A stretch of 38,701 bases of DNA from Clostridia bacterium (GTDB lineage Bacteria > Bacillota > Clostridia > Lachnospirales > Lachnospiraceae). The notes beneath the pieces were generated by a model that had not been told where the DNA came from, made no database searches, and worked only from the letters and a program-made list of their open reading frames with translations. The position numbers were made by a program, and so were the translations under genes. Shown here in pieces: positions 1,203 to 33,594 of the stretch. The first letter of the stretch is position 1; each line of letters opens with the position of its first letter. Location of the stretch: contig CAJTDE010000038.1 of assembly GCA_910574835.1 (NCBI GenBank), forward strand, positions 1-38,701, given 5' to 3'.

Positions 1203-2768
1203 CTACAAGTTCTCCATCTGTTTTACCAGCAAAAGCTTCTGTCCCGCCTTGATCTGCTCTGTCCCCAGCTCGTTCAGCTGACAAATCTGCTCCACTGTTG
1301 TATGATAGCTCTTTGCCACATCCCATAAAGTATCCAAGGGCTGCGCCGTATAAATAAGAAATCCCGGCAGCCGCTTCACAGCTTCCATATCCAAAGGACG
1401 CTCCTCCACCCCGGAAATATGCTGCATAGACATGCGGTTCAAAACAAGCGCATTGATCTGTACTACCGCCTTCACCTCCAGCTCCCCGCTATTCACCATA
1501 TTAATCGAAAGCTGCTCCAAAGAAGTCTGCAAGTAGTAAACACTATCCTTTCCAACTCCATCCGCCTCAACAAGATGTTCAAAGGGAACCACTCCTTTCA
1601 GGCACAGGAACGGATGATTATCATCCGAAGTCACATAAAGCACCTGAACCGATATAACGCCTTCTACCCGAAGCCCTTCCGGTGTTATCGTACTGTCATC
1701 TATCTTTACCTCTCCCCGGCTATGGCATATCTGAAGAATCTGTATCTCCGGATTCCCCGTTTTCATACGATCTGCCACCCTGCATTTTGATGCGTTGCAC
1801 ACCAAAAGGCTCTCATAAACCGCCGGCTCCTTAATCAGTTCAAGCTCCCGAACCGGGCTGTAGAGATCGCAGATCATATTCAAATGCTCTTCCTCATAAA
1901 TCTGAATATCCAGCTCAAGCACGGCATCCAGGTTCAGCACCCTCAGTTCCCCGTCATAATCCGGCTTTAATTCCAGATCACTGTGAGCCAGGCTCAATCC
2001 TAAGTTTCCTGACATTCCCTCCTGACAGCCGCTTACATCTACATGGCTGTTAAACGGAATCACCTGTTCCATCCAGTATGTTTTTCCGCTGTCCTCCTCT
2101 CCTTCGTACAGGACAAAGACTACCAGCTCCCCTTTCACCAGGATTTCCCCTTCGCCAAGCCGAAGCTCTGTCCCCTGCATTGTTATATCCTGCCAAAGAA
2201 GCTGACGAATATTCGGCTTATTTGCCGGCAGAATAATTTCATCCTTAATTCGGCAGGTATCTCTCTTTCTCACTGCAAGGCCGGCTGTGGAAATCTGGCA
2301 TGTCTTTACCTGTACCGTTTCGCCGTCTTCCACCTCCACCGGCACCTCTTCATCAAACAATTCATCCACTGCAAGCTCCAGGGTTACGATGGTCTTAATA
2401 CTCAGCTTCCGGGAATTGATAAGCGCTGTTGATACGTCCTCCAGCATCCATTTTAATTGCAGATTATCCCCATCCTTTGCATTTTCCACATTCATCATCT
2501 CTTCAAAGGATATCTGCCCCTCAATACTATGTAATCCGCTCTCCGGCCCTTCCTCCATATAGAGTACGGAGAAATTCAAAGCTCCTTTCACCTTCACTCT
2601 TCCGGACTCGATTCGGATATCGCCAATGTCAATGCTTCCCTTTTCCTGAATGATCATACCTGCATCCGGCATATTGTCCGGAATATTATAGTCATCATCC
2701 AAAGTCATCTGGCTGACTGCTTTTCCTTTTTGTCGATTCATATGTATATTTCTGCGAACAAGCTCCAT
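1203..2768 (-). CDS. sipL: SipL-like spore coat morphogenesis protein (SPOCS/DUF3794 repeats plus LysM)
   Basis: The 521-residue protein contains repeated DUF3794/SPOCS beta-rich modules (for example around residues 40-140, 170-280 and 330-440) and ends in a LysM domain (about 470-517, with TLWDVAKSYHTTVEQICQLN). This is the layout of SipL of Clostridioides difficile, a mother-cell protein that binds the SpoIVA ATPase and is needed to encase the forespore in coat. There is no signal peptide, which fits a mother-cell cytoplasmic role. The ATG at 2768 has an AGG about 9 nt upstream. A sigma-E/K-like promoter pattern lies at 2803-2831. The gene implies a spore-forming lineage. The family call is firm; equivalence to SipL is inferred from the domain order. 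Confidence 0.85.
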   Translation of the reverse strand: MELVRRNIHMNRQKGKAVSQMTLDDDYNIPDNMPDAGMIIQEKGSIDIGDIRIESGRVKVKGALNFSVLYMEEGPESGLHSIEGQISFEEMMNVENAKDGDNLQLKWMLEDVSTALINSRKLSIKTIVTLELAVDELFDEEVPVEVEDGETVQVKTCQISTAGLAVRKRDTCRIKDEIILPANKPNIRQLLWQDITMQGTELRLGEGEILVKGELVVFVLYEGEEDSGKTYWMEQVIPFNSHVDVSGCQEGMSGNLGLSLAHSDLELKPDYDGELRVLNLDAVLELDIQIYEEEHLNMICDLYSPVRELELIKEPAVYESLLVCNASKCRVADRMKTGNPEIQILQICHSRGEVKIDDSTITPEGLRVEGVISVQVLYVTSDDNHPFLCLKGVVPFEHLVEADGVGKDSVYYLQTSLEQLSINMVNSGELEVKAVVQINALVLNRMSMQHISGVEERPLDMEAVKRLPGFLIYTAQPLDTLWDVAKSYHTTVEQICQLNELGTEQIKAGQKLLLVKQMENL

Positions 2769-2802
2769 AACTTATACCTGCTTTCCCTATTTCTTTTCTA
2801 CC

Positions 2803-2831
2803 AATCTATGCGCAGATTCTTCCAACTATTC
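2803..2831 (-). promoter_or_regulatory. candidate mother-cell sigma (sigma-E/K type) promoter of sipL
   Basis: Read on the minus strand, GAATAGTT (2824-2831) and GCATAGATT (around 2802-2811) resemble the ATA and CATA-type -35 and -10 elements of sigma-E/sigma-K promoters. About 17 nt separate the two ATA cores. This places a start site near 2796, roughly 28 nt before the sipL ATG. The motifs are short and degenerate, so this is a suggestion only. Confidence 0.3.
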
Positions 2832-2869
2832 AGATTACTGTTTTGCACCTTTGAAGCGCCTTACAAAAC

Positions 2870-2889
2870 TGCGGAAAATATCTTCCGCA
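2870..2889 (-). terminator. short intrinsic terminator after the PrcB-domain gene
   Basis: TGCGGAA (2870-2876) pairs with TTCCGCA (2883-2889) around a 6-nt loop. The hairpin starts 2 nt past the stop codon at 2892 and is followed on the minus strand by GTTTTGT. The stem is short (7 bp) but GC-rich. Confidence 0.5.
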
Positions 2890-2891
2890 AA

Positions 2892-3293
2892 TTACCGGAA
2901 CACCACCGGTTTATCTACAAATTCCGTCTGTACTACCAAGCTGGGATAGCTTGACGCCTGGGCCACCTGCTCCTCCTTACCCGGCCCAATCAGGCTGGTA
3001 TCAAAGTAGATAGCATTTTCCGATAAATACAGTTCATTCACAGCTATACTGTAGCCGCTTGTACTTTGCTCTCCGTAGCCGATACAAAGATAAAGCTTCC
3101 CTTCCTCCTCATAGGTTAATTTAAATTCCCCTTTTCGTTTTTCCTCCAAAATCGTCTGAAGTCCTTCCGGCGCTTTTCCTTCCTCTATGATTGTATATTC
3201 CAGATCCTGAAGCTTCTCCTGTTCATTTGTCTGAATACTGCATCCGGAAAGGAAAAGCAGTATACTGCCAATCAGCAGAACTCGTTTCCACAT
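2892..3293 (-). CDS. small lipoprotein with a PrcB C-terminal domain
   Basis: A protein of about 133 residues begins with a lipoprotein signal (MWKRVLLIGSILLFLSGC), predicting attachment of the mature chain to the outer face of the membrane through the cysteine. The C-terminal part (GYGEQSTSGYSIAV through YPSLVVQ) matches the PrcB_C family, named after a subunit of the Treponema dentilisin protease complex. Its function in Clostridia is unknown. The start is uncertain. GTG at 3302, ATG at 3299 and ATG at 3293 are all in frame, and the GAGG site lies 8 nt before 3293, which I therefore prefer. The gene is divergent from malQ and no partner protease is nearby. Confidence 0.75.
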   Translation of the reverse strand: MWKRVLLIGSILLFLSGCSIQTNEQEKLQDLEYTIIEEGKAPEGLQTILEEKRKGEFKLTYEEEGKLYLCIGYGEQSTSGYSIAVNELYLSENAIYFDTSLIGPGKEEQVAQASSYPSLVVQTEFVDKPVVFR

Positions 3294-3340
3294 ATTCATC
3301 ACCTCACTTTATATTTACGTGGGAAATGCTTGTATTATCC

Positions 3341-3369
3341 TTGTTTTTTCCAATCAACTTTATTATAAT
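3341..3369 (+). promoter_or_regulatory. sigma-A-type promoter of the malQ cluster
   Basis: TATAAT at 3364-3369 is a perfect -10 element. TTGTTT at 3341-3346 is a moderate -35 element, and the spacer is 17 nt. The predicted start near 3376 gives a leader of about 54 nt. Confidence 0.6.
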
Positions 3370-3384
3370 AGGAAAAGATGAAAC

Positions 3385-3413
3385 CGGCTTAAGCCTCTAT
3401 GCTCGTTAAGCCG
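3385..3413 (+). promoter_or_regulatory. leader hairpin before malQ
   Basis: CGGCTTAA (3385-3392) and TTAAGCCG (3406-3413) form a perfect 8-bp stem with a 13-nt loop. It lies between the promoter and the AAGGAG ribosome binding site. No U-run follows, so it may affect translation or mRNA stability rather than stop transcription. Confidence 0.45.
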
Positions 3414-3429
3414 CGAAAGGAGAAGTAAT

Positions 3430-4950
3430 ATGCGCTTTAAAACATCCGCCGATGACCATGTAAATCACAGGTACAGCGGCATCCTGGTACACCCCACTTC
3501 TTTTCCCTCCCCCTATGGAATCGGAGATTTTGGAAAAGGAGCATACGAATTTATAGATTTTTTGGAGGCATCCGGCCAGCATCTGTGGCAGATCCTTCCT
3601 CTGGTTCCCATCACTCCCTATGGCAATTCTCCCTACCAGGGTTATTCCGTGTTCGCAGGGGAGCCTTTGCTCATCAGTCCGGAACTTCTGAAAGAAAAGG
3701 AGCTTCTCACCGGCGAAGATCTGAAAGACATTCCGGCTTTTGACCCTGTGAAGGTAGATTATGAAAAGGTTCGCATCTACAAAGAGACCCTTTATAAAAA
3801 GGCATACGAATCCTTCCGCCACACTGCGGATAAGAACTTCTTAGAGGAGTACAATTCCTTCTGTGACGCCAACGAGTTTTGGCTGGGAGATTACTGCCTG
3901 TTTATGGCTATTCGGGAGGATCAGGAAAATATTATCTGGACCAAATGGCCGGAAGAGCTGCGCAATCTCTCCAAGAAGGATCGTCCGCTGTGGGAGGCAA
4001 AGCTTAAGGACGGCATTGCTTACCAGAAGTTTTTACAATACCTTTTCTACATCCAATGGTATGATCTGAAGAAGTACGCCAATGATAAGGGTATTGCAAT
4101 TATTGGCGATATTCCCATCTTCGTATCCCCGGAAGGAGCCGATGTATGGGCTAACCGGCATCTGTTCCAGGTAAATGAAGCAGGTTATCCGGATAAGGTC
4201 GCGGGCGTACCCCCCGATTACTTCAGCGCTACGGGTCAAAAATGGGATAATCCTCTGTATGATTGGAAGGCTCATAAAAAGGAAGGCTACCAATGGTGGA
4301 TTGCCCGCATCCGCAACCAAATCGATCAGGTGGACTATTTGCGCATCGATCACTTCCGAGGCTTTGAAGCTTACTGGGAGGTAGACGCCAAAGAGGAAAC
4401 CGCCATCAACGGCATCTGGAAGAAAGGACCCGGAGAAGAATTTTTCCGCGCTATTCAAGCCGAGCTTGGGGAGGATCTTCCCATCTTTGCGGAAGATCTT
4501 GGACTGATCACTCCGGAGGTGGAGCATTTGCGTGACGCTTTGGGCTTTCCTGGTATGCGTATTCTGCAATTTGCCTTTGAAGGAGGCGAAAGCACCTTCC
4601 TTCCCCATCAATTGAACACCCGCAACTGTATCTGCTATACGGGCACACATGATAACGACACCAGCACCGGCTGGTATCAGAACACCTCGGACTATGCCAG
4701 GGATAAAGTTCGCCGCTATATGAACACGGATGCTTCCAGCATCAGTTGGGATTTTATACGCATCTGCCTTGGTACCATTGCCCGTTATGCCATCTTCCCG
4801 CTTCAGGATGTGTTAAAGCTTGGCAGCGAAGCGCGTATGAATACCCCCGGCGTTGCGTTGGGCAACTGGGAATGGCGCTATCGCAAAGAGGATTTGAATC
4901 TCGGCATGGCTTCCGGATTACGACAGATGACAGAACTCTTCGGCAGATAG
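3430..4950 (+). CDS. malQ: 4-alpha-glucanotransferase (amylomaltase, GH77)
   Basis: This cytosolic enzyme transfers maltodextrin units between glucans in glycogen and maltose metabolism. The 506-residue protein covers a full GH77 barrel. It has the N-terminal SGILVHPTSFPSPYGIGDFG, the nucleophile motif LRIDHFRGFEAYW (Asp307), the acid/base region AEDLG (Glu355) and the GTHDNDT motif near 405-411. It ends with ARMNTPG and NWEWR, also typical. The start at 3430 follows AAAGGAGAAG. The gene leads a cluster and is followed 9 nt later by plsC, although the downstream genes concern lipid and peptidoglycan synthesis. No glycogen or maltose genes are adjacent. Confidence 0.96.
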   Translation: MRFKTSADDHVNHRYSGILVHPTSFPSPYGIGDFGKGAYEFIDFLEASGQHLWQILPLVPITPYGNSPYQGYSVFAGEPLLISPELLKEKELLTGEDLKDIPAFDPVKVDYEKVRIYKETLYKKAYESFRHTADKNFLEEYNSFCDANEFWLGDYCLFMAIREDQENIIWTKWPEELRNLSKKDRPLWEAKLKDGIAYQKFLQYLFYIQWYDLKKYANDKGIAIIGDIPIFVSPEGADVWANRHLFQVNEAGYPDKVAGVPPDYFSATGQKWDNPLYDWKAHKKEGYQWWIARIRNQIDQVDYLRIDHFRGFEAYWEVDAKEETAINGIWKKGPGEEFFRAIQAELGEDLPIFAEDLGLITPEVEHLRDALGFPGMRILQFAFEGGESTFLPHQLNTRNCICYTGTHDNDTSTGWYQNTSDYARDKVRRYMNTDASSISWDFIRICLGTIARYAIFPLQDVLKLGSEARMNTPGVALGNWEWRYRKEDLNLGMASGLRQMTELFGR

Positions 4951-4959
4951 GAGGCACGA

Positions 4960-5691
4960 ATGATAAGGTTCATTATAATTGCGCTGATGCTCTTTCTCTA
5001 TCTGCTTTTGGGCATCCCTGTCCTCTTAGTGGAATGGGTCATCGGAAAGTTTAATCAGGAAGCAAAAGATTACAGCTGTCTGCGCATGGTGCAGACAGCC
5101 TTTAAGCTCATGCTTAAAGTAGCAGGCGTGCGTCTTACCGTTATCGGTGAGGAGCATGTTCCAAAGGATCAGGCTGTCCTGTATATCGGAAATCACCGGA
5201 GCTATTTTGACATTCTTCTTACGTATTCCCGATGTCCCAGGCTGACCGGCTATATCGCCAAGGTGGAGATGCTGCGTTATTGGTTTCTTCGTGACTGGAT
5301 GAAGGCTCTCTACTGTCTGTTTCTGGATCGGGAGGATATTAAGGCCGGTTTAAAAACCATCCTGCAGGGAATTGAATATATTAAAAGAGGAATTTCCATC
5401 TGCATTTTTCCGGAAGGAACCAGGAACCGTACCGACGAAATGCTTCCCTTTAAGGAGGGCAGTATGAAGATTGCGGAAAAAACGGGTTGTCCGATTATTC
5501 CTATGGCAATTACTAATTCTGCGGAAATATTTGAAAACCATCTTCCCTTTATTCGTCCCTGCCATGTGATACTTGAATATGGAACACCAATCCTTCCCGG
5601 CAAACTGTCAAAAGAGGAAAAGAAGTTTCTGGGTTCCTATACCCAGAGTCAAATCCAAAAGATGCTGGATAAAAATAAAAGTCTGGTATAA
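4960..5691 (+). CDS. plsC: 1-acyl-sn-glycerol-3-phosphate acyltransferase
   Basis: This membrane-associated acyltransferase converts lysophosphatidic acid to phosphatidic acid in phospholipid synthesis. The 243-residue protein has an N-terminal hydrophobic segment (about residues 4-27). The catalytic NHRSYFD motif (His79 and Asp84) is followed by the glycerol-phosphate-binding motif FPEGTRNR (150-157). Both match the NHX4D and FPEGT signatures of the PlsC family. It begins 9 nt after malQ, with AGGAGG overlapping the malQ stop, which suggests cotranscription. Homologues with other acyl acceptors exist, so the exact substrate is inferred. Confidence 0.9.
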   Translation: MIRFIIIALMLFLYLLLGIPVLLVEWVIGKFNQEAKDYSCLRMVQTAFKLMLKVAGVRLTVIGEEHVPKDQAVLYIGNHRSYFDILLTYSRCPRLTGYIAKVEMLRYWFLRDWMKALYCLFLDREDIKAGLKTILQGIEYIKRGISICIFPEGTRNRTDEMLPFKEGSMKIAEKTGCPIIPMAITNSAEIFENHLPFIRPCHVILEYGTPILPGKLSKEEKKFLGSYTQSQIQKMLDKNKSLV

Positions 5692-24114: not shown

Positions 24115-26400
24115 CTATCCTCTGTAGTAATTAATCAGACAACCCTTCAAAATAATCTCACGCTCGTCATCCGTCAAAGCGCCCAGGCGAAGTGTTACCT
24201 CTCTTTCCTGCTCTCCATTCACATAAGCCTTCACTTCGCTTCTGTTCTCCTCAATGGCCTTGCGCACCTCAGGAATAAACAGGAAATCTCCCTTTGCAAA
24301 GGGAAGCGCGCCCTCGTCAATCAGGAAGGGCAGCATGCCCCAGTTAATGAGATTGGAGCGGTAACGCTTAGTCGCGTAGGAATTGGCAATATTCGCCCAT
24401 CCTCCCAGTACTTTCTGGCAGGACGCCGCCTGTTCTCTGGCGGAACCGTCTCCCGGCTTCACGGCAAATATGGTGCTTCCCACACCCAGATTCGTTTTAT
24501 CCACACCCGGATACCAGGGATTCAAAGCGTCAAAGATACCTTTCAGATCCGAAACCGCCTCTGCCGGGCACTTTCCGGCCTCAATCGCTTTCTGCGCCGC
24601 CTGGATCTCCTTGGCATTTCCCACATAAGCCGGGTCCTTCCTGGACAACGTAAACTCCGCAAGTCCAAGGGGATTGGAACGGTAAGAGGAAGTCTCACCG
24701 GAGGGAATCAGCTCGTCCGTAGTCGTAACCGGATCGTGAATCTCCGAAACCACCTTTAAAATCATATGCTCCGGCAAAGCAGACATGGCCGGCCAGTCCT
24801 TGATATTGGGACCAAACTTAATCTCCACCTCCGGGTCCGCCTCTCCCTTGCTGTCAAATACCCGGTTCTCATAAATCTTGCTGTCAAAGAAGTACCTGGG
24901 ATTGGTGTACTTCACATCCACCTCCGTAGCCGCTGTCAGATATCCCTTATTGGCTGCCGTAGCCGCAATGGAACGTGCATCCATCAGCGCCACGGACGCA
25001 ATCTGGCCGCTCTGGAGCTTGGAGCCTTCCCGGTTGGGGAAGTTTCTTGTGGAATGGCGGATACTGAAGCCGTTGTTGGAGGGCGTGTCGCCGGCGCCGA
25101 AGCAGGGACCGCAGAAGGCCGTCTTCATAACTGCTCCCGTCTCCATCAGCGCAGCCGCCGCGCCGTTTTTCACCAGTTCCATATAAACGGGCATACTGGC
25201 CGGATATACGCTTAAGGTAAACTCGTCCGGTCCAATGCTTGCTCCCTTTAAAATATCGGCCGCCGCACAGATATTTTCAAAGCCGCCGCCTGCGCAGCCG
25301 GCAATGATTCCCTGATCTACATACAGCTTCCCGCCGCGGATCTTATCCGTCAGCCGGAAGTCTACGGCGTCGCCCAGGCTTACCAGCGCTTTTTTCTCCA
25401 CATCCCGGAGAATATCGCCCAAATTGGCTTTTACCTCCTCGATGGTATAGGTGTTGCTTGGGTGGAAGGGCATGGCTATCATAGGCTTAACCGCACTCAA
25501 ATCCACGTAAATCATGCCGTCATAGTAAGCGGCCGCCCCCGGATTCAGCTCCCGGTAGTCTCCGCTTCTTCCGTGAATCTCATAAAATTCCTTAATCACA
25601 TCATCCGTTTTCCAGATGGAGGACAGGCAGGTGGTCTCCGTGGTCATTACATCAATACCGATACGGAAATCTGCACTCAGATTTTCCACGCCGTCGCCGA
25701 TAAACTCCATCACCTTATTATTTACATAGCCTTTTTCAAATACGGCTCCGATAATCGCCAGAGCCACGTCCTGAGGGCCTACTCCCTTCTGAGGCTCGCC
25801 GGTGAGATAGACGCCTACAATGCCCGGCATGGGGATATCGTAGGTCTTGTTCAGAAGCTGCTTTACAAGCTCCGGGCCGCCCTCTCCCATCGCCATAGTG
25901 CCCAGAGCGCCGTAACGTGTATGGCTGTCCGAGCCGAGAATCATTTTTCCGCCTGCTGCGAGCATCTCGCGGGCGTACTGGTGGATCACCGCCTGATGAG
26001 GGGGCACATAGACGCCGCCGTACTTCTTGGCACAGGTCAGGCCGTACATATGATCATCCTCGTTGATGGTTCCGCCTACGGCGCAGAGGCTGTTGTGGCA
26101 GTTGGTCAGTACATAGGGGATGGGGAAACGCTCCAGTCCCGACGCCCGGGCTGTCTGAATGATGCCTACAAAGGTAATATCGTGGGAGGTCAGCTTGTCA
26201 AACTTGATCTCCAGTTTTTCCATACTGTCAGATGTATTGTGTGCCTCCAGGATTCCATAAGCGATGGTCTGCTTTCTGGCTTCCTCCTTGGAGGGCGCCT
26301 TGCCCAGCCTGCTCTCCAGAACGCTCACCGCATCCCTGCTGTCCGGGATAATCTCCGTTCCATTCAGCACATAGGCTCCGCCTTCAAATAATTGAATCAT
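24115..26400 (-). CDS. aconitase-family hydratase (YbhJ-like)
   Basis: The 761-residue protein covers the full aconitase/IPM isomerase fold with a C-terminal swivel domain. The three Fe-S ligands are visible as Cys369 (IIAGCAGGG), Cys430 and Cys433 (CGPC). [11 protein letters not shown] (157-167) and the [19 protein letters not shown] segment are also typical. It resembles the uncharacterised hydratase YbhJ of Escherichia coli more than AcnA, and it lacks citrate-cycle neighbours. The likely reaction is stereospecific hydration/dehydration of a carboxylic acid; the substrate is unknown. AGGAGG lies 7 nt before the ATG. A structured repeat element lies immediately upstream. Confidence 0.85.
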
Positions 26401-26416
26401 ATTGCTCCTCCTATTC

Positions 26417-26544
26417 CAGTTCCGTAATATCCCTTACAATACACCTTGCCTAAATCAATTTCCAGCCGCTTAAAGATGTGTCTGTAAATTGATTTGTGCA
26501 TTGTAAGGGATATTACTGTTCCCGTTCCGTAATAATAATAGTAT
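26417..26544 (-). repeat. structured palindromic element A with flanking 27-nt boxes, upstream of the hydratase gene
   Basis: The core is 26424-26516 (93 nt). Outer arms are 26424-26444 and 26496-26516 (20 of 21 pairs). A 7-nt bulge (26445-26451) lies on one side only. Inner arms 26452-26465 and 26482-26495 give 13 of 14 pairs, and the loop is 16 nt. A 27-nt box (CAGTTCCGTAATA, 9 nt, then a GTACA-like end) at 26417-26443 overlaps the gene-proximal arm, and a degenerate copy lies at 26522-26544. The gene-proximal end is 7 nt from the AGGAGG ribosome binding site, so it forms the hydratase 5' leader if transcribed. Confidence 0.85.
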
Positions 26545-26557
26545 TGTTTTCATCAAA

Positions 26558-26590
26558 TTGCCGGCCAAGGCAGCACGCCTTGTCCGGCAA
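26558..26590 (-). terminator. terminator of the second two-component operon
   Basis: TTGCCGG plus CAAGGC (26558-26571) pairs with GCCTTG plus CCGGCAA (26577-26590), with one mismatch and a 5-nt loop. On the minus strand it lies about 40 nt past the kinase stop and is followed by TTTGATG. It is strong and GC-rich with a modest U-run. Confidence 0.7.
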
Positions 26591-26631
26591 CACTAAATTT
26601 ATTATAAATATCCCCGGCAAAGATTGCAAGT

Positions 26632-29280
26632 TTATTCTGTGAGAATTTGCTCTTTCAACCCCGGAGCGCCGAGATCTTCCACCGCGGAATCTGCCGGATT
26701 CTGTCCCTGGGCCTCTGTTCTGGGCGCCTCCGGGAAAATAATTGTAACCTTGAACAAATCCCCGTCCAGATAGATATCAAAGCTTCCCTTCTGCAGTTCC
26801 GTCAAGGTCTTAGTAATGGACAGTCCAAGTCCGCTTCCCTCCGTGCTTCTTGCCACGTCGCCGCGGATAAACCGCTCCGTCAGCTCGCCTGCGTCAATGT
26901 TCAAAGGCTGCTCGGAAATATTTTTAATATGAAAGCGCACCATATGGCCTACCACGGTCAGCTCCACATAGACCCTTGTCCCCGGCATAGCATATTTCGC
27001 CACATTGCCGTACAGATTTTCAATAATACGCCAAAGCCTCCGCCCGTCGGCCTCGATGATTACCGGCTCCCTTGGCATATTTACCACAAGCTGCAGCTCC
27101 CGCTCCTCAAACTTCTCGCTGAACTCCCCGTTAGTCTGATTGATCAGTTCCTGGAAATTAATTCTCACTAATTCCAGCTTCACATTACCGGAGCTTATCT
27201 TGGAAGCCTCCACCAAATCATCCGTCAGATGCTTCAGGCGCTGAGACTTATCCTCCAGAATGGCAATGTAATTCCTTGCTCTTTCATTCGGAATATCCTC
27301 CCGTTTCAGCAGATCCACATAGTTGATAATGGAGGTCAGAGGCGTCTTGATATCATGGGACACATTGGTAATCAGATCTGTTTTCAAACGTTCATCCTTC
27401 ACGCTCTGTTCCACGGCCGTAGAAAGCCCCTCGCCGATGTGGTTCACGGCCTCCGCCAGAAGCAGGCTGTCGCCGGACAGCTTTTCAATCGGAATCTGAT
27501 AATTCAAATCCCCTTCGGAAATCTTCCTGATTCCCTCTAAGATCTGCTTGCGCTGCCGGGCCTGCTGCAGCAAAATCAAGCCTGCTGCAAAGTCAAAAAT
27601 CACCAGCAGCATAATTCCCAAACTTCCAAAGAAGAAAAGCAGCATATTTACCAGCAGGAACATTCCATAAGAAAGCATTACCTTCGTTGTTACCTTCCAT
27701 CTGCCCACCATCCGGTAAAAATGCTTCAATACGGCATAGAGCACACTGTTCTTCCAAAGCGTCCTCGTTTTAATACGCCGCACCAGACTGAGATATCCGC
27801 AGAGAAACAGGAAATTCAGCAAAAAGGTAATAACCCCTCCAAATACACCTGCCTCTCCAAGTCCATTTACCCGGTTATGCATCAATGTTCCTGCAAATGT
27901 AATCAGCCATGCGGGAAGGAGTAGAAGCAGCGCTGCCCCTTCGGTGCGAATCCTATCAAATCTTGTAAGGCTGATACTTCTATCTTCTTCCTCCGTTCCC
28001 CGTCCCGCAGCCAGGGTCAAATAAATCAGGGTCAGAAGATACAAAATACCGCCCAGAATCACCCCATATACGGACATGCGGCTGATGGGCTGAATCTCCT
28101 CATACTGCCGCTTATACGTCTGAAGATTATCGCTTGCCACATAGCTTGGATCAATGGCAATTGCCAGGGTATAATTTCCCTCTATGGACATTGGAAATTC
28201 CTTCAGATAGCTGCTGATTTCGCTTAAGGAAACCGGCATCTGATTCATCTCATAGCTCATATCCGAGCTGTTAAAGATCAGATAGTCTCCATGACTGCGA
28301 ATATAATCCAAGAGGCTGTTTCGATCCGCAAGCTCTGTCTTGCCGAAGCTTTTGATATTGGTTATGGTCTTTTGCTCGTAGTCCTCTTTGGTCACCCGGG
28401 TTACCTCCTCCGGAATCACCAGGTAACGCATATTGGTCATGCTGGGGCTGAAAAGCTCCAGATTTTCCTTATAGGAATAATAGTCATTGTAAATATTGTT
28501 AAGTACATGTTCCAGGGATGCATAAATCTCCTGCAGCTCCTGGGTAGACAGCTTCTGTGCTTCCGCATAGGAAATAATATCCGTATATTCCGCCGGTGCG
28601 TAGCGCTCCTCTACCGCCTGGATCTCCTCCACATCCTGAATCACAGCCTGACCGAAGATTCCTTCCCCGAACAGATCCGGCTCCTCCAGTTCTCCCTCCG
28701 GTATGAAGGTTTCTTCCATAGCTTCCTCCGAAACTTCCTCCAAAGATTCCTCAATAAAGGACAGTGCCGCATCATAGGAAATGGAAACGGAGGCTACTGC
28801 CGTTCCGTCGTCATAGATTGCCTGCTCCGTATAATCCTTGGAGCTTTTGGAGATATAGCCGATTCTCCCGTCATCATAGGTGATTTTCAAAAGGGTATTA
28901 TATGTGCAGCCATCCAAAGACCAGTTCAGCAGATCCGTCAGTTTGTAGCAGAGACCGCCGTCCTCCGCCTTCGTATGAAGAATCTGATTTTCGTCCGCAT
29001 ATTCCTGAATATTCAGCACCAGGGAGGCATCATACACGCCGTTCTTTTCAAACCGGCTCTCCCGACTGGCAGCACGGACGCACCGGAAAATCTGTTCCCG
29101 GGCTTCGTGCTGAAAATAGGCCGTATTCTCAAACACGTCGTCCTCTTTGAACAGACGGAACCCGCTGTTTCCCACGGATACCATACAAACGGCTATGGAC
29201 AGTACCAGCACCACCGCACAAACTTGATTCAAAATAAGGGCCAGGGCCTTCCAGCCCTTAGAATATTCCCATCGCTTCAT
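26632..29280 (-). CDS. large multi-pass sensor histidine kinase
   Basis: The 882-residue kinase has TM1 (about 13-35), an extracellular domain of some 365 residues with a strongly acidic stretch (about 176-205), then several membrane segments (about 403-425, 449-465, 480-500, 533-570), a HAMP-like linker, phospho-His642 (TNVSHDIKTPLTS) and an ATPase domain with N box ENLYGNVAKYA and G2 box GSGLGLSI. The usual DxGxG box is replaced by KNISEQPLNI, as in a known subgroup of Firmicute kinases. It follows its regulator after only 2 nt. The signal is probably an envelope or extracellular ligand; the extracellular domain is not recognisable. Confidence 0.9.
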   Translation of the reverse strand: MKRWEYSKGWKALALILNQVCAVVLVLSIAVCMVSVGNSGFRLFKEDDVFENTAYFQHEAREQIFRCVRAASRESRFEKNGVYDASLVLNIQEYADENQILHTKAEDGGLCYKLTDLLNWSLDGCTYNTLLKITYDDGRIGYISKSSKDYTEQAIYDDGTAVASVSISYDAALSFIEESLEEVSEEAMEETFIPEGELEEPDLFGEGIFGQAVIQDVEEIQAVEERYAPAEYTDIISYAEAQKLSTQELQEIYASLEHVLNNIYNDYYSYKENLELFSPSMTNMRYLVIPEEVTRVTKEDYEQKTITNIKSFGKTELADRNSLLDYIRSHGDYLIFNSSDMSYEMNQMPVSLSEISSYLKEFPMSIEGNYTLAIAIDPSYVASDNLQTYKRQYEEIQPISRMSVYGVILGGILYLLTLIYLTLAAGRGTEEEDRSISLTRFDRIRTEGAALLLLLPAWLITFAGTLMHNRVNGLGEAGVFGGVITFLLNFLFLCGYLSLVRRIKTRTLWKNSVLYAVLKHFYRMVGRWKVTTKVMLSYGMFLLVNMLLFFFGSLGIMLLVIFDFAAGLILLQQARQRKQILEGIRKISEGDLNYQIPIEKLSGDSLLLAEAVNHIGEGLSTAVEQSVKDERLKTDLITNVSHDIKTPLTSIINYVDLLKREDIPNERARNYIAILEDKSQRLKHLTDDLVEASKISSGNVKLELVRINFQELINQTNGEFSEKFEERELQLVVNMPREPVIIEADGRRLWRIIENLYGNVAKYAMPGTRVYVELTVVGHMVRFHIKNISEQPLNIDAGELTERFIRGDVARSTEGSGLGLSITKTLTELQKGSFDIYLDGDLFKVTIIFPEAPRTEAQGQNPADSAVEDLGAPGLKEQILTE

Positions 29281-29282
29281 TC

Positions 29283-29981
29283 CTACAGCTTCTCCACTTT
29301 ATAGCCGATTCCCCACACCACTTTCAGATAGCGCGGTTCCTTTGCATTGATTTCAATCTTTTCCCGAATGTGGCGGATGTGTACCGCCACCGTGTTGTCC
29401 GCTCCGATGGCATCCTCGTTCCAGATGCTTTCATAAATCTGATTGATGGAAAATACTTTTCCTTGGTTTTTCACCAACAGGAGCAGAATATTGTATTCTA
29501 TGGGAGTGAGCTTCACCGGCTCCCCGTCTACGGTTACCTCTTTCAGATCGTCGTTCATCACCAGTCCACCGGTCTGATAGATCTTCTGGCTTTCCTCCGC
29601 CGCATTGCCAAGCTTGGTGTAACGCCGAAGCTGCGATTTCACACGTGCAACCAGTTCCAGGGGGTTGAAGGGCTTTGTCACATAGTCGTCCGCTCCGATG
29701 TTGAGGCCCAGGATTTTGTCCGCGTCCTCGGATTTGGCAGACAGGATGATAATGGGGATACTGCTCTTCTCCCGGATTTTCAGTGTGGCCCTAAGACCGT
29801 CCAGCTTGGGCATCATGATATCAATGATCAGAAGCTGAATCTCATGCTTCTCCATCATATTGACCGCCTGGAGGCCGTCATAGGCTTTTAAGATCTGATA
29901 CCCCTCCTGGGATAAATAGATCTCTATGGCGTCTACAATTTCCTTATCGTCGTCGCATACTAAAATGGTATTTGTATTCAT
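29283..29981 (-). CDS. OmpR-family response regulator
   Basis: The roughly 232-residue protein has a receiver domain with DDD (10-12), phosphoacceptor Asp54 (LLIIDIMMPKLDG) and the lysine of DYVTKPFNP. The winged-helix effector domain ends KVVWGIGYKVE. The start is ambiguous because the frame opens at 30017. CAGAGG lies 8 nt before the ATG at 29981 and only 2 nt before the ATG at 29987, so I chose 29981. It is the first gene of the pair with the large kinase, from an extended -10 promoter at 30020. Confidence 0.92.
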   Translation of the reverse strand: MNTNTILVCDDDKEIVDAIEIYLSQEGYQILKAYDGLQAVNMMEKHEIQLLIIDIMMPKLDGLRATLKIREKSSIPIIILSAKSEDADKILGLNIGADDYVTKPFNPLELVARVKSQLRRYTKLGNAAEESQKIYQTGGLVMNDDLKEVTVDGEPVKLTPIEYNILLLLVKNQGKVFSINQIYESIWNEDAIGADNTVAVHIRHIREKIEINAKEPRYLKVVWGIGYKVEKL

Positions 29982-30019
29982 CTTCATCACCTCTGCTCCC
30001 ATTTTACCGATTCTCATTG

Positions 30020-30028
30020 ATTATAACA
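30020..30028 (-). promoter_or_regulatory. extended -10 promoter of the second two-component operon
   Basis: On the minus strand TGTTATAAT combines a TG extension and a perfect TATAAT. The predicted start near 30013 leaves a leader of about 32 nt. No convincing -35 is visible at 16-18 nt, which fits an extended -10 promoter. Confidence 0.5.
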
Positions 30029-30151
30029 AGGGTTTTTTAATTTCGGCTGGGGGATTTCTTAAGAATTTGTTACTTTTCTTACAATTTTAAAAGAAACATG
30101 AAATAGAATATGCGATAAAAGTTTATTTTGAACTGTTTCTTAAAGGACCAT

Positions 30152-30200
30152 TTTAAAAAACGGAGAGATGAGAAAAACCCTTATGCTCTTTCTCATCTCC
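30152..30200 (-). terminator. intrinsic terminator downstream of the degV-like gene
   Basis: GAGATGAGAAA (30165-30175) and TTTCTCATCTC (30189-30199) form a perfect 11-bp stem with a 13-nt loop. On the minus strand it is followed by CGTTTTTTAAAA. It lies about 240 nt past the degV stop, beyond the 172-nt palindrome. Confidence 0.8.
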
Positions 30201-30242
30201 CGCTTTATCTGACATTGCAAAAACTTTTCTTTCCTATGGATT

Positions 30243-30414
30243 GAACTAGTAGTCCGTACTGGAAATCCTTGTGCATATTTCTGAGGATATTTTTCCGAGA
30301 GTGCAGGTCAAAAAACGCAGACGTAGTGGTGCTACGGCGAGGCTTTTTGACCTGTGCTATCGGAGAAATAGACCGGAAATATGCACAAGGATTTCCGATA
30401 CGGACTGCTAGTTC
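30243..30414. repeat. 172-nt imperfect palindrome after the degV-like gene
   Basis: Outer arms 30243-30281 and 30376-30414 match at 36 of 39 positions. Middle arms 30295-30314 and 30344-30363 (CCGAGAGTGCAGGTCAAAAA type) pair with three mismatches. A tip stem CGTAG/CTACG (30322-30326, 30332-30336) closes a 5-nt loop. The whole folds on itself around 30329 and has no coding frame. It fills most of the otherwise empty 455 nt between the degV stop and the response regulator start. It resembles a MITE-like or large structured RNA repeat; no terminal duplication is obvious. Confidence 0.85.
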
Positions 30415-30436
30415 TCCTAAACTGCCGCAACACCTT

Positions 30437-31321
30437 TTATTTCAGGTATTCCGCATACTTCTCTTCACTGGCGCTCAGGAATACGATACCGATGATTCCG
30501 GGGCCTGTGTGGGCGCCGATGGCGCAGCCTACCTGTGATTCTATGATATTCTTACAGTGGTACTTCTCTGTCAGCATTTCCTTTACCTTTGTGCAGGTCT
30601 CGGGATCGTTGCCATGAACCACGGCAATCTCCTGTTTTTCCAAGTCCACACCGCGCTCGCCTACAAGATCAACGCAGCGCTTTAAGGACTTCATACGTCC
30701 CCTTACCTTCTCAAAGGCTACCAGTGCCCCGTCGTCATTGACCTCGATAATGGGTTTGATATCAAGCACGCCTCCCACTACGGCGGAAGTCCTGCTCAAA
30801 CGGCCGCCCTTGTACAGATATTCCAGGGTATCCACGGTCACAATATGCTCCATGTTGTCAAAGAAATAACGGGCCGCCTCTGTAATCAGCTCCTTGGATG
30901 CGCTGTTCTTCTGCATACGTAAAAGCTTAATCACGCCCAATCCAAAGCCCATTGAAGCGCATTTTGAATCGACAATGGTGATTTTAAAGTCCGGGTATTC
31001 CTCCAAAAGCTCCTCGCGGGCCAGGTTGGCCGCGTTAAAGGTTCCGGCAATTCCCGTAGAAAAGCACAAATAGAGCACCTCATCCCCGGCCTTTGCATAA
31101 GGCTCAAAGTTCTCCCGGAACATGTACTGATTGATGTGATAGGTCTTAATATCCGCTCCCTCTGACTGAATACGGTAAAAATCCTTCGGGAAGATGGTCT
31201 TTCCGTCAAAGTAATCCGTTCCGTTGATGGTGACGGGTGTTGGAATCACATGCAGCTGATATTCGTCTATAATCTCTTTTGGCAGGTCTGTTGCCGAATC
31301 CGTAATAATTTTAAAAGCCAT
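30437..31321 (-). CDS. DegV family fatty-acid-binding protein
   Basis: The 294-residue two-domain protein starts MAFKIITDSATDLP, the DegV signature. It has the fatty-acid-binding GIAGTFNAANLA and the second domain containing YKGGRLSRTSAVVGGVL. DegV/FakB proteins present fatty acids to the FakA kinase for incorporation into phospholipids. The frame is open to 31420, but AGGAGG lies 7 nt before the ATG at 31321 and the conserved N-terminus starts there. No fakA is nearby. The upstream region holds a structured repeat, and downstream come the 172-nt palindrome and a terminator. Confidence 0.93.
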   Translation of the reverse strand: MAFKIITDSATDLPKEIIDEYQLHVIPTPVTINGTDYFDGKTIFPKDFYRIQSEGADIKTYHINQYMFRENFEPYAKAGDEVLYLCFSTGIAGTFNAANLAREELLEEYPDFKITIVDSKCASMGFGLGVIKLLRMQKNSASKELITEAARYFFDNMEHIVTVDTLEYLYKGGRLSRTSAVVGGVLDIKPIIEVNDDGALVAFEKVRGRMKSLKRCVDLVGERGVDLEKQEIAVVHGNDPETCTKVKEMLTEKYHCKNIIESQVGCAIGAHTGPGIIGIVFLSASEEKYAEYLK

Positions 31322-31338
31322 GCTTATCCTCCTATTAT

Positions 31339-31506
31339 AGTCGCTGCGCGACAGCACTAAAGAGTAAAGTCGCTTCGACACACCTGTGATGAGAGAAACT
31401 TTCATTCGAAATGCACTCATGAAAGTTCCTCTCGTGCGTCTTTGCGACTTTACTATTTTAAGTCGCTACGCGATAGCTCTAAAGAGCAAAGTCGCTGCGT
31501 GACACG
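31339..31506 (-). repeat. structured element D with 45-nt direct repeats, upstream of the degV-like gene
   Basis: Two direct repeats (31339-31383 and 31461-31506, roughly 80 percent alike, each with a TCGC-3 nt-GCGA mini-hairpin and CTAAAGAG) flank a 92-nt palindrome at 31363-31454. The palindrome has 21-position outer arms (11 bp, 3x3 internal loop, then 7 positions with one mismatch). A one-sided 7-nt bulge (31384-31390), 15-position inner arms (31391-31405 and 31419-31433) and a 13-nt loop complete it. The gene-proximal arm is part of one repeat. The layout matches elements A and B although the sequence differs. Confidence 0.8.
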
Positions 31507-31519
31507 TTCCGCACTATCC

Positions 31520-33445
31520 CTATAATTCGTCTAGTTCCTTCAGCCAGATATCGCTGCATGCATCGCTGGGCATCCGCAGATCGCCTCTGGGCGATACGGC
31601 CACGGTTCCTACCTTGGGGCCGTCCGGCAGGCAGGAGCGTTTAAACTGCTGCGCAAAAAACCGCTTGTAAAAGGTCCTGAGCCATTTTAAAATCACCGCG
31701 TCCTCATAGGCTCCTGCAAATGCCGCCCTTGCCATCCGATAAATCTTGGAGGGTGAAAAACCAAACCGCAGCACATAGTACAGGAAGAAGTCGTGAAGCT
31801 CGTAAGGCCCTACGAGATCCTCTGTTTTCTGGGAAATCCCCCCATCCTTGGGCGGCAGCAGCTCGGGACTTACCGGTGTATCCAGTACATCCAGAAGCAC
31901 GTCGGAAAGCTCCTTATCCCCGCAGGTATCCGCATAATAACGCACCAGATGACGCACCAGTGTCTTAGGCACGCCGCTGTTGACTCCGTACATGGACATA
32001 TGATCCCCGTTGTAGGTCGCCCATCCAAGGGCAAGCTCCGACATATCGCCGGTTCCCACAACCAGGCCGCCGGTCTGATTGGCAATTCCCATAAGTACCT
32101 GGGTCCGCTCTCTGGCCTGAGCATTCTCATAGGTGATATCATGATTCTCCGGATCCTGTCCGATATCCCAGAAATGGGCGTTCACCGACTCGCGGATGTC
32201 CACCTCCCGAAGCGTTGCTCCCAATTTTCTTGTAAGCTTGCAGGCATTGTCATAGGTGCGGCCTGTGGTGCCGAAGCAGGGCATGGTCACGCCGATGATC
32301 TGCTCTCTGGGAAGAGACAGAAGGTCAAAAGCCCTGGCGGTCACAAGCAAAGCCAATGTGGAATCCAGTCCGCCGGAGATTCCCACTACGACTGACCAGC
32401 AGCCCGTATGCTCCAGGCGTTTTTTAAGCCCCATTGCCTGTATGGAAAGTATCTCCTCACAGCGGCGCTCCCGGTCGGACTTATCCTCCGGGACAAAGGG
32501 ACCGGGCGCAATCTGACGCTCCAGTTTCGTAGTTTCCATTGAAAGATGGAATCCAACCTCCGTATAAGCATCATTATTTTCAATCCAAAACGTGTTCATT
32601 CTTCTGCGCTCGCCTGCGAGACGGCATACATCTATATCGCCGTAAGTAATTCCGCTTTGGAAGCGCTCCGACCGGCCAAGAATGGTTCCGTTCTCCGCAA
32701 TAAGGTTTTGACCGCCAAAGACCAAATCCTGGGTGGACTCTCCCTCCCCTGCATTGGCGTATACATAACCGCATACCAGCCTGGCGGACTGGCTGCCAAT
32801 CAATTCCTCCCGGTAGTGCTCCTTGCCTATGGTCTCATCACTGGCGGAGCAGTTGGCAATAACTGTTGCGCCTGTCAATGCATGACGCACGCTTGGAGGC
32901 TCGGGAACCCACAGGTCTTCACAAATCTCCGCGGCAACTACAAGCTCCTGCAATTCCGCACAGGAAAATACCATATCGGTTCCAAAGAGTACATACTCCT
33001 CCTTTTTTGTTCCGCGGCCGAGCCACACATATTCCGCCTCCCGGTTTCCCGGTGTAAAATAGCGCATCTCATAAAATTCCCCGTAATTGGGAAGATTGGT
33101 TTTGGGCACCATTCCCAGAATCTCGCCGCGGTTCAGTACGGCCGCCACATTATAGAGCTTTCCCTGCTTCTCCCAGGGCAAGCCCACGAATATCAGCGCA
33201 TCCAGATCCTTCACCGCATCCGCTATGGCAAATAAAGTCTCTCTTGCCTTTTGGATAAGAGCCGCCTGGAAAAACAGATCTCCGCAGGTGTAGCCCGTGA
33301 TGCAAAGCTCCGGAAATACAATCAGCTTTGCGCCGTTTCCGGCTGCCTCTTTTGCAAGACGAATGATCTCCGCTCCGTTAAATTCCGGCTGTGCCACACG
33401 AATCTTTGGTGTAATGGCCGCTGTTTTTACAAATCCATGTTTCAT
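31520..33445 (-). CDS. nadE: glutamine-dependent NAD+ synthetase
   Basis: The 641-residue enzyme converts nicotinate adenine dinucleotide to NAD+ using ammonia from glutamine. An N-terminal nitrilase-type glutaminase domain carries the triad Glu46 (VFPEL), Lys115 (VPKTNLPNYGEF) and Cys175 (AEICEDLWV). The C-terminal synthetase has the PP-loop SGGLDS (357-362), GTGDMSELALGW and a late FKRSCLPDGPK. This is the long, fused type that does not need external ammonia. GGAG lies 8 nt before the ATG. A 93-nt structured element lies directly upstream, ending about 16 nt before the ribosome binding site. Confidence 0.96.
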   Translation of the reverse strand: MKHGFVKTAAITPKIRVAQPEFNGAEIIRLAKEAAGNGAKLIVFPELCITGYTCGDLFFQAALIQKARETLFAIADAVKDLDALIFVGLPWEKQGKLYNVAAVLNRGEILGMVPKTNLPNYGEFYEMRYFTPGNREAEYVWLGRGTKKEEYVLFGTDMVFSCAELQELVVAAEICEDLWVPEPPSVRHALTGATVIANCSASDETIGKEHYREELIGSQSARLVCGYVYANAGEGESTQDLVFGGQNLIAENGTILGRSERFQSGITYGDIDVCRLAGERRRMNTFWIENNDAYTEVGFHLSMETTKLERQIAPGPFVPEDKSDRERRCEEILSIQAMGLKKRLEHTGCWSVVVGISGGLDSTLALLVTARAFDLLSLPREQIIGVTMPCFGTTGRTYDNACKLTRKLGATLREVDIRESVNAHFWDIGQDPENHDITYENAQARERTQVLMGIANQTGGLVVGTGDMSELALGWATYNGDHMSMYGVNSGVPKTLVRHLVRYYADTCGDKELSDVLLDVLDTPVSPELLPPKDGGISQKTEDLVGPYELHDFFLYYVLRFGFSPSKIYRMARAAFAGAYEDAVILKWLRTFYKRFFAQQFKRSCLPDGPKVGTVAVSPRGDLRMPSDACSDIWLKELDEL

Positions 33446-33461
33446 TTTATCATCTCCATTC

Positions 33462-33594
33462 CAGTTCCGTAATAACCTTCACGGTACACAAGATTGAGAA
33501 CAATTTCCAGCCACAAAAGCATGTGTCTGTAAATTGTTCTGTGCACCGGGAAGGTTATTACTATTTCCAGTTCCGTAATATTACTTAGGGTACA
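33462..33594 (-). repeat. structured palindromic element B with flanking 27-nt boxes, upstream of nadE
   Basis: The core is 33469-33561 (93 nt). Outer arms are 33469-33489 and 33541-33561 (19 of 21 pairs). A one-sided 7-nt bulge is at 33490-33496. Inner arms 33497-33510 and 33527-33540 give 13 of 14 pairs, and the loop is 16 nt. The geometry is identical to element A. Paired positions that differ from A change on both sides. The 27-nt box is complete on both flanks (33462-33488 and 33568-33594, CAGTTCCGTAATA, 9 nt, GTACA). Confidence 0.88.

Follow-up and report, generated by a model that had tools for sequence, protein, structure and literature searches.

The window analysed here is contig CAJTDE010000038.1 (38,701 nt in full) of a Clostridia bacterium from the family Lachnospiraceae (GCA_910574835.1), and it contains two long palindromes, A at 26424–26516 and B at 33469–33561. 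We found that both belong to a family of hairpin units which lie in sense orientation directly before the start sites of genes across the host genome. Judged from sequence, the family is one of gene-oriented leaders that combine features of cis-acting RNA with those of dispersing repeats, with no match in Rfam 15. The sequence comparisons below establish its size, orientation and placement, a fold kept by compensatory changes with a bias to the sense strand, the dynamics of its tandem copies and its presence or absence in relatives; we infer that the units act in mRNA. We consider it likely that the element is a mostly intercistronic, transcribed, cis-acting leader RNA module, which has spread to start sites, leaves the ribosome-binding site accessible and is probably a site of protein binding or of processing.

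Hairpin units in the host genome and their placement before genes

Among the covariance-model matches in the fetched loci, the host genome contains 131 sense-strand units in 96 arrays, of which 68 are single, 21 double and 7 triple. These units were kept from 228 model matches, the remainder being mostly opposite-strand mirror matches of places already counted, with a few short fragments. Other searches gave numbers of the same kind. BLAST with unit A matched the host genome at least 79 times, counting mirror-strand matches (40 of 89 candidates scored), and covariance model R1 found at least 146, again including mirror matches (150 of 2774 candidates scored). Model R1 was built from alignment A1, which contains 44 units, one per array except for array L032 with two; for the later model R2, alignment A3, in which three rows were mirror matches, was replaced by A4 (87 rows). 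The flanking 15-mer TCCAGTTCCGTAATA, with at most one mismatch, occurs 144 times, and its reversed control not once.

Generally, the arrays stand immediately before genes. For 92 of 96, a same-strand open reading frame (ORF) of at least 60 amino acids (aa), or one truncated where the locus ends, begins within 50 nt, with a median distance of 14 nt. When both a Shine-Dalgarno (SD) sequence and an ORF were required, 83 of 96 arrays qualified, compared with 979 of 20,000 random places (4.9%). Among the four exceptions, two (L041 and L163) are followed by a unit of a second type and then by SD and ATG, and the other two stand before reading frames of 59 and 16 aa. On the contigs, 43 arrays lie on the plus and 53 on the minus strand. 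A codirectional gene is found within 400 nt upstream of 81 arrays (median gap 43 nt), for 64 of them within 100 nt. Intrinsic terminators were considered and rejected, as the common array end CGGAACTNNAATAGGAG has no T run (96 array ends read; no terminator scan run).

A structured, covarying element on the sense strand 5' of the SD could be a classical regulon leader, that is, a riboswitch, ribosomal-protein leader or similar element answering one signal. However, the downstream genes look functionally unrelated: the ten proteins named by NCBIfam have assorted housekeeping and metabolic functions, and the remaining genes, judged by reading their N-terminal sequences, agree with this picture. 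Six other genera supplied 39 arrays for comparison (one array without a 40-aa reading frame was left out), of which only two share a downstream protein with the host set at 65% identity or more, and three more at 29–49%. The comparison with Rfam that the earlier note had proposed returned no family for the window at the gathering threshold of Rfam 15, and at E values up to 5 there were three sub-threshold matches in four loci, none of them credible. A one-signal regulon is thus very improbable.

Anatomy of the unit and the copies in the window

In the sense direction, a unit of about 105 nt consists of CAG, an outer stem of about 21 bp with locus-specific letters, an inner hairpin, a 3' bulge of about 7 nt and the returning outer stem, after which CGGAACUNNAA, the SD and AUG follow. 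The inner hairpin is conserved as AAATC-[AG]ATTTACAG-R-CACA, loop, TGTG-R-CTGGAAATT-GATTT. Behind the returning stem comes CGGAACTNNAA, most often followed by TAGGAG and ATG, and tandem units are joined by the linker AACTNNAA. Three sites are regularly not Watson-Crick pairs: a purine mismatch A.G at the base is present in 43 of 44 rows of A1, a second A.G mismatch in the inner hairpin in 31 of 44, and a third site, at A1 columns 39 and 55, has G.A in 21 and A.G in 15 of 44 rows. The swap between G.A and A.G at this last site is a non-canonical covariation.

Units A and B, on the minus strand, follow this plan together with their genes:

26414..26518, minus strand: leader hairpin of unit A, flanked by CAG and CGGAACTGGAA (palindrome 26424–26516; 115.4 bits with the covariance model, own genome)
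26405..26412, minus strand: SD AGGAGGAG after unit A (read from sequence)
24115..26400, minus strand: hydratase gene (aconitase family, NF008503) behind unit A (NCBIfam search)
26517..26534, minus strand: half-unit remnant TATTACGGAACGGGAACA upstream of unit A (read from sequence)
33459..33563, minus strand: unit B leader hairpin (palindrome 33469–33561; 111.4 bits with the covariance model)
33453..33458, minus strand: SD TGGAGA after unit B (read from sequence)
31520..33445, minus strand: NAD+ synthase gene (NF002730) behind unit B (NCBIfam search)
33562..33583, minus strand: half-unit remnant TAATATTACGGAACTGGAAATA upstream of unit B (read from sequence)

The earlier note had described both palindromes at these coordinates, each directly before the SD of its minus-strand gene, and had counted seven compensated differences between A and B; all of this was confirmed, with five differences in the outer arm and two in the inner arm. 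The five compensated positions, like the differing arrays and A-C cases reported below, are counts by eye. Unit B also carries one uncompensated change, on which that note is silent, at outer-arm position 13, unpaired in the predicted fold. Predicted RNA folding energies are −40.3 (plus strand) and −40.9 (minus strand) kcal/mol for palindrome A, and −41.3 and −47.4 kcal/mol for B, respectively. These folds are far better than those of shuffled sequences (z −7.5 to −10.4; none of 200 shuffles equally good). The half-unit remnants, a third unit of the second type at 31357–31455 and the size of the family were absent from the earlier note.

Conservation of the fold

Covariation was far above both controls, shuffled and slid, in two alignments. 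In A1, 21 of 39 pairs contain double changes (mean of the shuffles 9.9), pairing holds in 95.8% of cells (89.9% shuffled, at most 47.0% slid), and the covariation score is 0.249, compared with 0.137 for shuffles. Alignment A2, with 52 matches from six other genera, has double changes at 31 of 33 pairs and a score of 0.519 against 0.192; four of its rows are mirror matches, and since it was fitted to the model it leans towards the model. In either alignment, none of 500 shuffles attained any of the five measures used.

The mismatches point to the sense strand. With two G-U-rich columns left out, A1 contains 47 cells with a sense G-U and 12 with A-C, for which a p value is only a guide because the cells share ancestry; in all columns, 99 cells are G-U, 14 A-C and 57 other mismatches, out of 1708.

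Shared loci were compared with those of a close relative, G009. In 41 orthologous units, changes are found at 45 of 2842 paired positions compared with 39 of 1053 unpaired positions. Among 42 changed pairs, 21 stay standard, of which 7 became G-U, 12 went from G-U to Watson-Crick and 2 are double changes; compensated changes since the split from G009 are found in L149 and L050. In 13 more distant orthologues, the median identity is 69% for the arms, 85% for the inner hairpin and 85% for the gene (gene identities computed without gaps), and the arms of the relative reach a complementarity score of at least 13 in 9 of the 13.

The earlier note also allowed for a mechanism that regenerates palindromes. 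If DNA template switching between the arms rebuilt them, covariation would arise without selection, and the arms behave partly in this way: within arrays the outer arms are alike (median identity 1.00 over 12 positions; 42 pairs), while between arrays they are unlike (0.42; 4560 pairs), with 89 distinct 12-nt stretches among 96 gene-proximal units. In addition, both units of the G009 array at L050 show a change from A-U to G-C that is absent from all three units of the host. However, the stem changes between host and G009 are mostly single, with 19 to or from G-U against 2 intact double changes, and A-C intermediates in the sense strand are fewer (7); conserved mismatches and a near-constant bulge length persist as well. 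We therefore do not favour template switching, which has a slight chance at best. The L050 region has a further peculiarity: at 1301–5145 four successive arrays with differing arms stand before four genes resembling an rnf operon, of which the search named only rnfA.

Distribution among genomes

Further copies, whose absence would have refuted the reading of the earlier note, were found at several taxonomic levels. In the genus, 8 of 16 genomes match by BLAST, host included. In the family, 7 of 299 genomes match by covariance model, host included, with six other genera represented; strict filters were used in this search, and the number may be an undercount. In the class, 1 of 391 genomes, the host itself, matches by model R2. 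This search was strictly filtered, with ten scored candidates in each genome; among the 391 genomes 21 are listed, and the sample may not include any of the six other bearing genera, so that the result limits the breadth only weakly. When one collection of 84,980 species genomes was scanned with a strict pattern, 81 stretches were found, of which the 80 listed fall in six genomes. The bearers among the matches listed are Clostridia bacterium, Lachnoclostridium sp., uncultured Lachnospiraceae and the unclassified bacterium 1XD21-13; several of these isolates presumably come from mouse gut. No match was found in plasmids and phages by blastn with unit A, nor in viral contigs by the exact pattern. 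A literature search, judged by titles and first abstract lines, found no account of this element.

Turnover between relatives

We paired 49 host arrays with G009 loci, and compared 43 with both flanks. Of these 43, 12 differ by approximately whole units, among them one with no unit remaining in G009. The leader of nadE has lost its inner hairpin in G009, and other relatives carry remnants or none.

At recA, G000 and G009 have an intact unit and G005, G006 and G015 a degenerate one; there is none in G004, G007 and G008 or in any of the eight outgroup genomes (330 nt upstream read). The absence in the outgroups and these three relatives suggests that the unit was gained at recA. Upstream of recA (L028 / L297-L312), the unit, which only some relatives have, lies between CGAACAAACATTCG and the SD of recA; we take this upstream sequence to resemble a LexA box. 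At a third locus, a single unit between GGAA and TAGAGG distinguishes L169 from its G005 counterpart L062. Shortened forms occur there in G004 and G009, so that the unit is as likely to have been lost in G005 as gained. At both L169 and recA, GGAA flanks the unit on both sides, which hints at a target-site duplication (two loci, by reading).

Such occupied and empty states, together with 96 dispersed arrays, the whole-unit differences and the small overlap of downstream genes between genera, also speak for a selfish, non-autonomous element resembling miniature inverted-repeat transposable elements (MITEs), whose enzyme would recognise a folded single strand and insert it 5' of SD-like purine runs, with no benefit to the host. 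However, at shared loci the stems have changed more slowly than unpaired positions since the G009 split, with compensation at L149 and L050, and an own-strand gene start lies just downstream of nearly all arrays. Inspection of the flanks compared, made by eye, revealed no constant target duplication, and no driving enzyme was found: a Y1 transposase was rejected as the driver, being absent from the element-bearing draft genomes G008, G009 and G015. A purely selfish element is accordingly rather unlikely. The earlier note had left the choice between a cis-acting leader and a mobile element, and both alternatives are partly right, as most arrays have the placement of a leader and the occupied/empty states and whole-unit differences attest dispersal.

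Comparison with known repeats

REP sequences with their RAYT (Y1) transposases are imperfect hairpins in many, clustered copies. The leader element differs from them in that the Y1 transposase does not track it, and that its unit is about 105 nt long and gene-oriented. Integron attC sites have a conserved structure with variable arms, strand-marking unpaired bases and unit-wise recombination. Unlike attC, the leader loci are housekeeping genes rather than cassettes; an integron integrase, tried as the driver, was rejected, with 0 of 16 genomes over the cut-off and general tyrosine recombinases below it, in control genomes too. ERIC repeats are unlike the leader unit in sequence and geometry.

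CREE/NEMIS of Neisseria are described as more than 120 dispersed inverted-repeat copies, gene-adjacent and mobile between strains, which are able to bind RNase III; the elements also create promoters, are bound by IHF and may interrupt coding sequences (PMC2649163). The likeness lies in the many dispersed inverted-repeat copies beside genes. Unlike CREE as described there, the leader arrays are sense-oriented before a start codon (92 of 96), include the SD or border on it, frequently occur in tandem, and have covarying, locus-specific stems. ERIC repeats, according to passages of PMC2229807, are intergenic and transcribed, with an orientation-dependent effect on mRNA, in which the leaders would resemble them and other MITE-like repeats; a fixed distance to the SD, as in the leaders, has no ERIC counterpart in those passages. 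We infer that the hairpin leaders work like transcribed repeats of the CREE and ERIC type, and differ in orientation, SD attachment and tandem design.

A proposed leader module in mRNA

The leader RNA module that we favour would act in mRNA, mostly between codirectional genes, where its self-folding would leave the ribosome-binding site unpaired and independent of the upstream gene. The SD and start region is predicted to be unpaired with a probability of 0.58 in leaders compared with 0.46 in 91 other genes, and shuffling the hairpin lowers this value from 0.583 to 0.502 (91 leaders), which fits a fold that holds the ribosome-binding site open and insulates it from the upstream gene. The inner hairpin, conserved and with purine mismatches, exceeds the needs of a spacer and suggests a binding or cleavage factor. 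It may be the place where a factor that binds double-stranded RNA, either an enzyme of the RNase III type or another protein, docks or cleaves and so would set processing and half-life; RNase III cleavage of the long duplex is plausible. Copies would reach new start sites and afterwards be retained or decay locally.

Several observations weigh against this module. The accessibility effect is modest and prediction-based, and units next to the gene show no measurable gain in stability over distal ones (28 arrays, p 0.23). A single DNA strand that folds in this sense would likewise account for the tolerance of G-U. Between host and G009, 21 of 42 changed pairs break standard pairing, equal to the number kept; 13 of the 21 breaks are in L048, L164 and L177, and the comparisons at L164 and L177 are decayed or misaligned and inflate the stem breaks. 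Seven of the 21 are A-C, five of these in two decayed units. Finally, the hairpin is dispensable, because it is missing before the same genes (nadE, recA) in close relatives and has no BLAST match in 8 of the 16 genus genomes.

Tentatively, the units might go further and form a portable intercistronic leader cassette, in which one architecture with a standard ribosome-binding site serves about 100 unrelated genes, with a dedicated RNA-binding or processing factor and distinct stems that prevent cross-pairing. If the leader reading is true, translation of about 100 everyday genes starts behind a dispersing RNA fold, and a dispersed repeat has turned into a standard mRNA part. The genome would then offer a natural leader library, with 89 distinct arm stretches and one to three copies per gene (none in some relatives), from which one could read directly how expression depends on the number of hairpins, the stem sequence and the spacing of the SD.

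Units of the second type

Besides the type-1 units described above, there is a type-2 subfamily, which shares the type-1 geometry but differs in the letters of its stems and adds a mini-hairpin; a pattern search of the host loci fetched found 17 members. The window contains one of them:

31357..31455, minus strand: third unit, diverged type-2, with the geometry of A and B and other stem letters (31.5 bits)
31340..31352, minus strand: extra mini-hairpin GTCGCGCAGCGAC in the type-2 linker (read, and pattern search)
31328..31333, minus strand: SD AGGAGG after the type-2 unit (read from sequence)
30437..31321, minus strand: DegV family protein gene (TIGR00762) behind the type-2 unit (NCBIfam search)

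This type-2 unit is present in one copy in the host and in two tandem copies in G009. In L041 and L163, a linker beginning TAGTCCGGCTAAGAAAT, with a small inverted repeat of its own, connects the type-1 unit to the type-2 unit before the SD.
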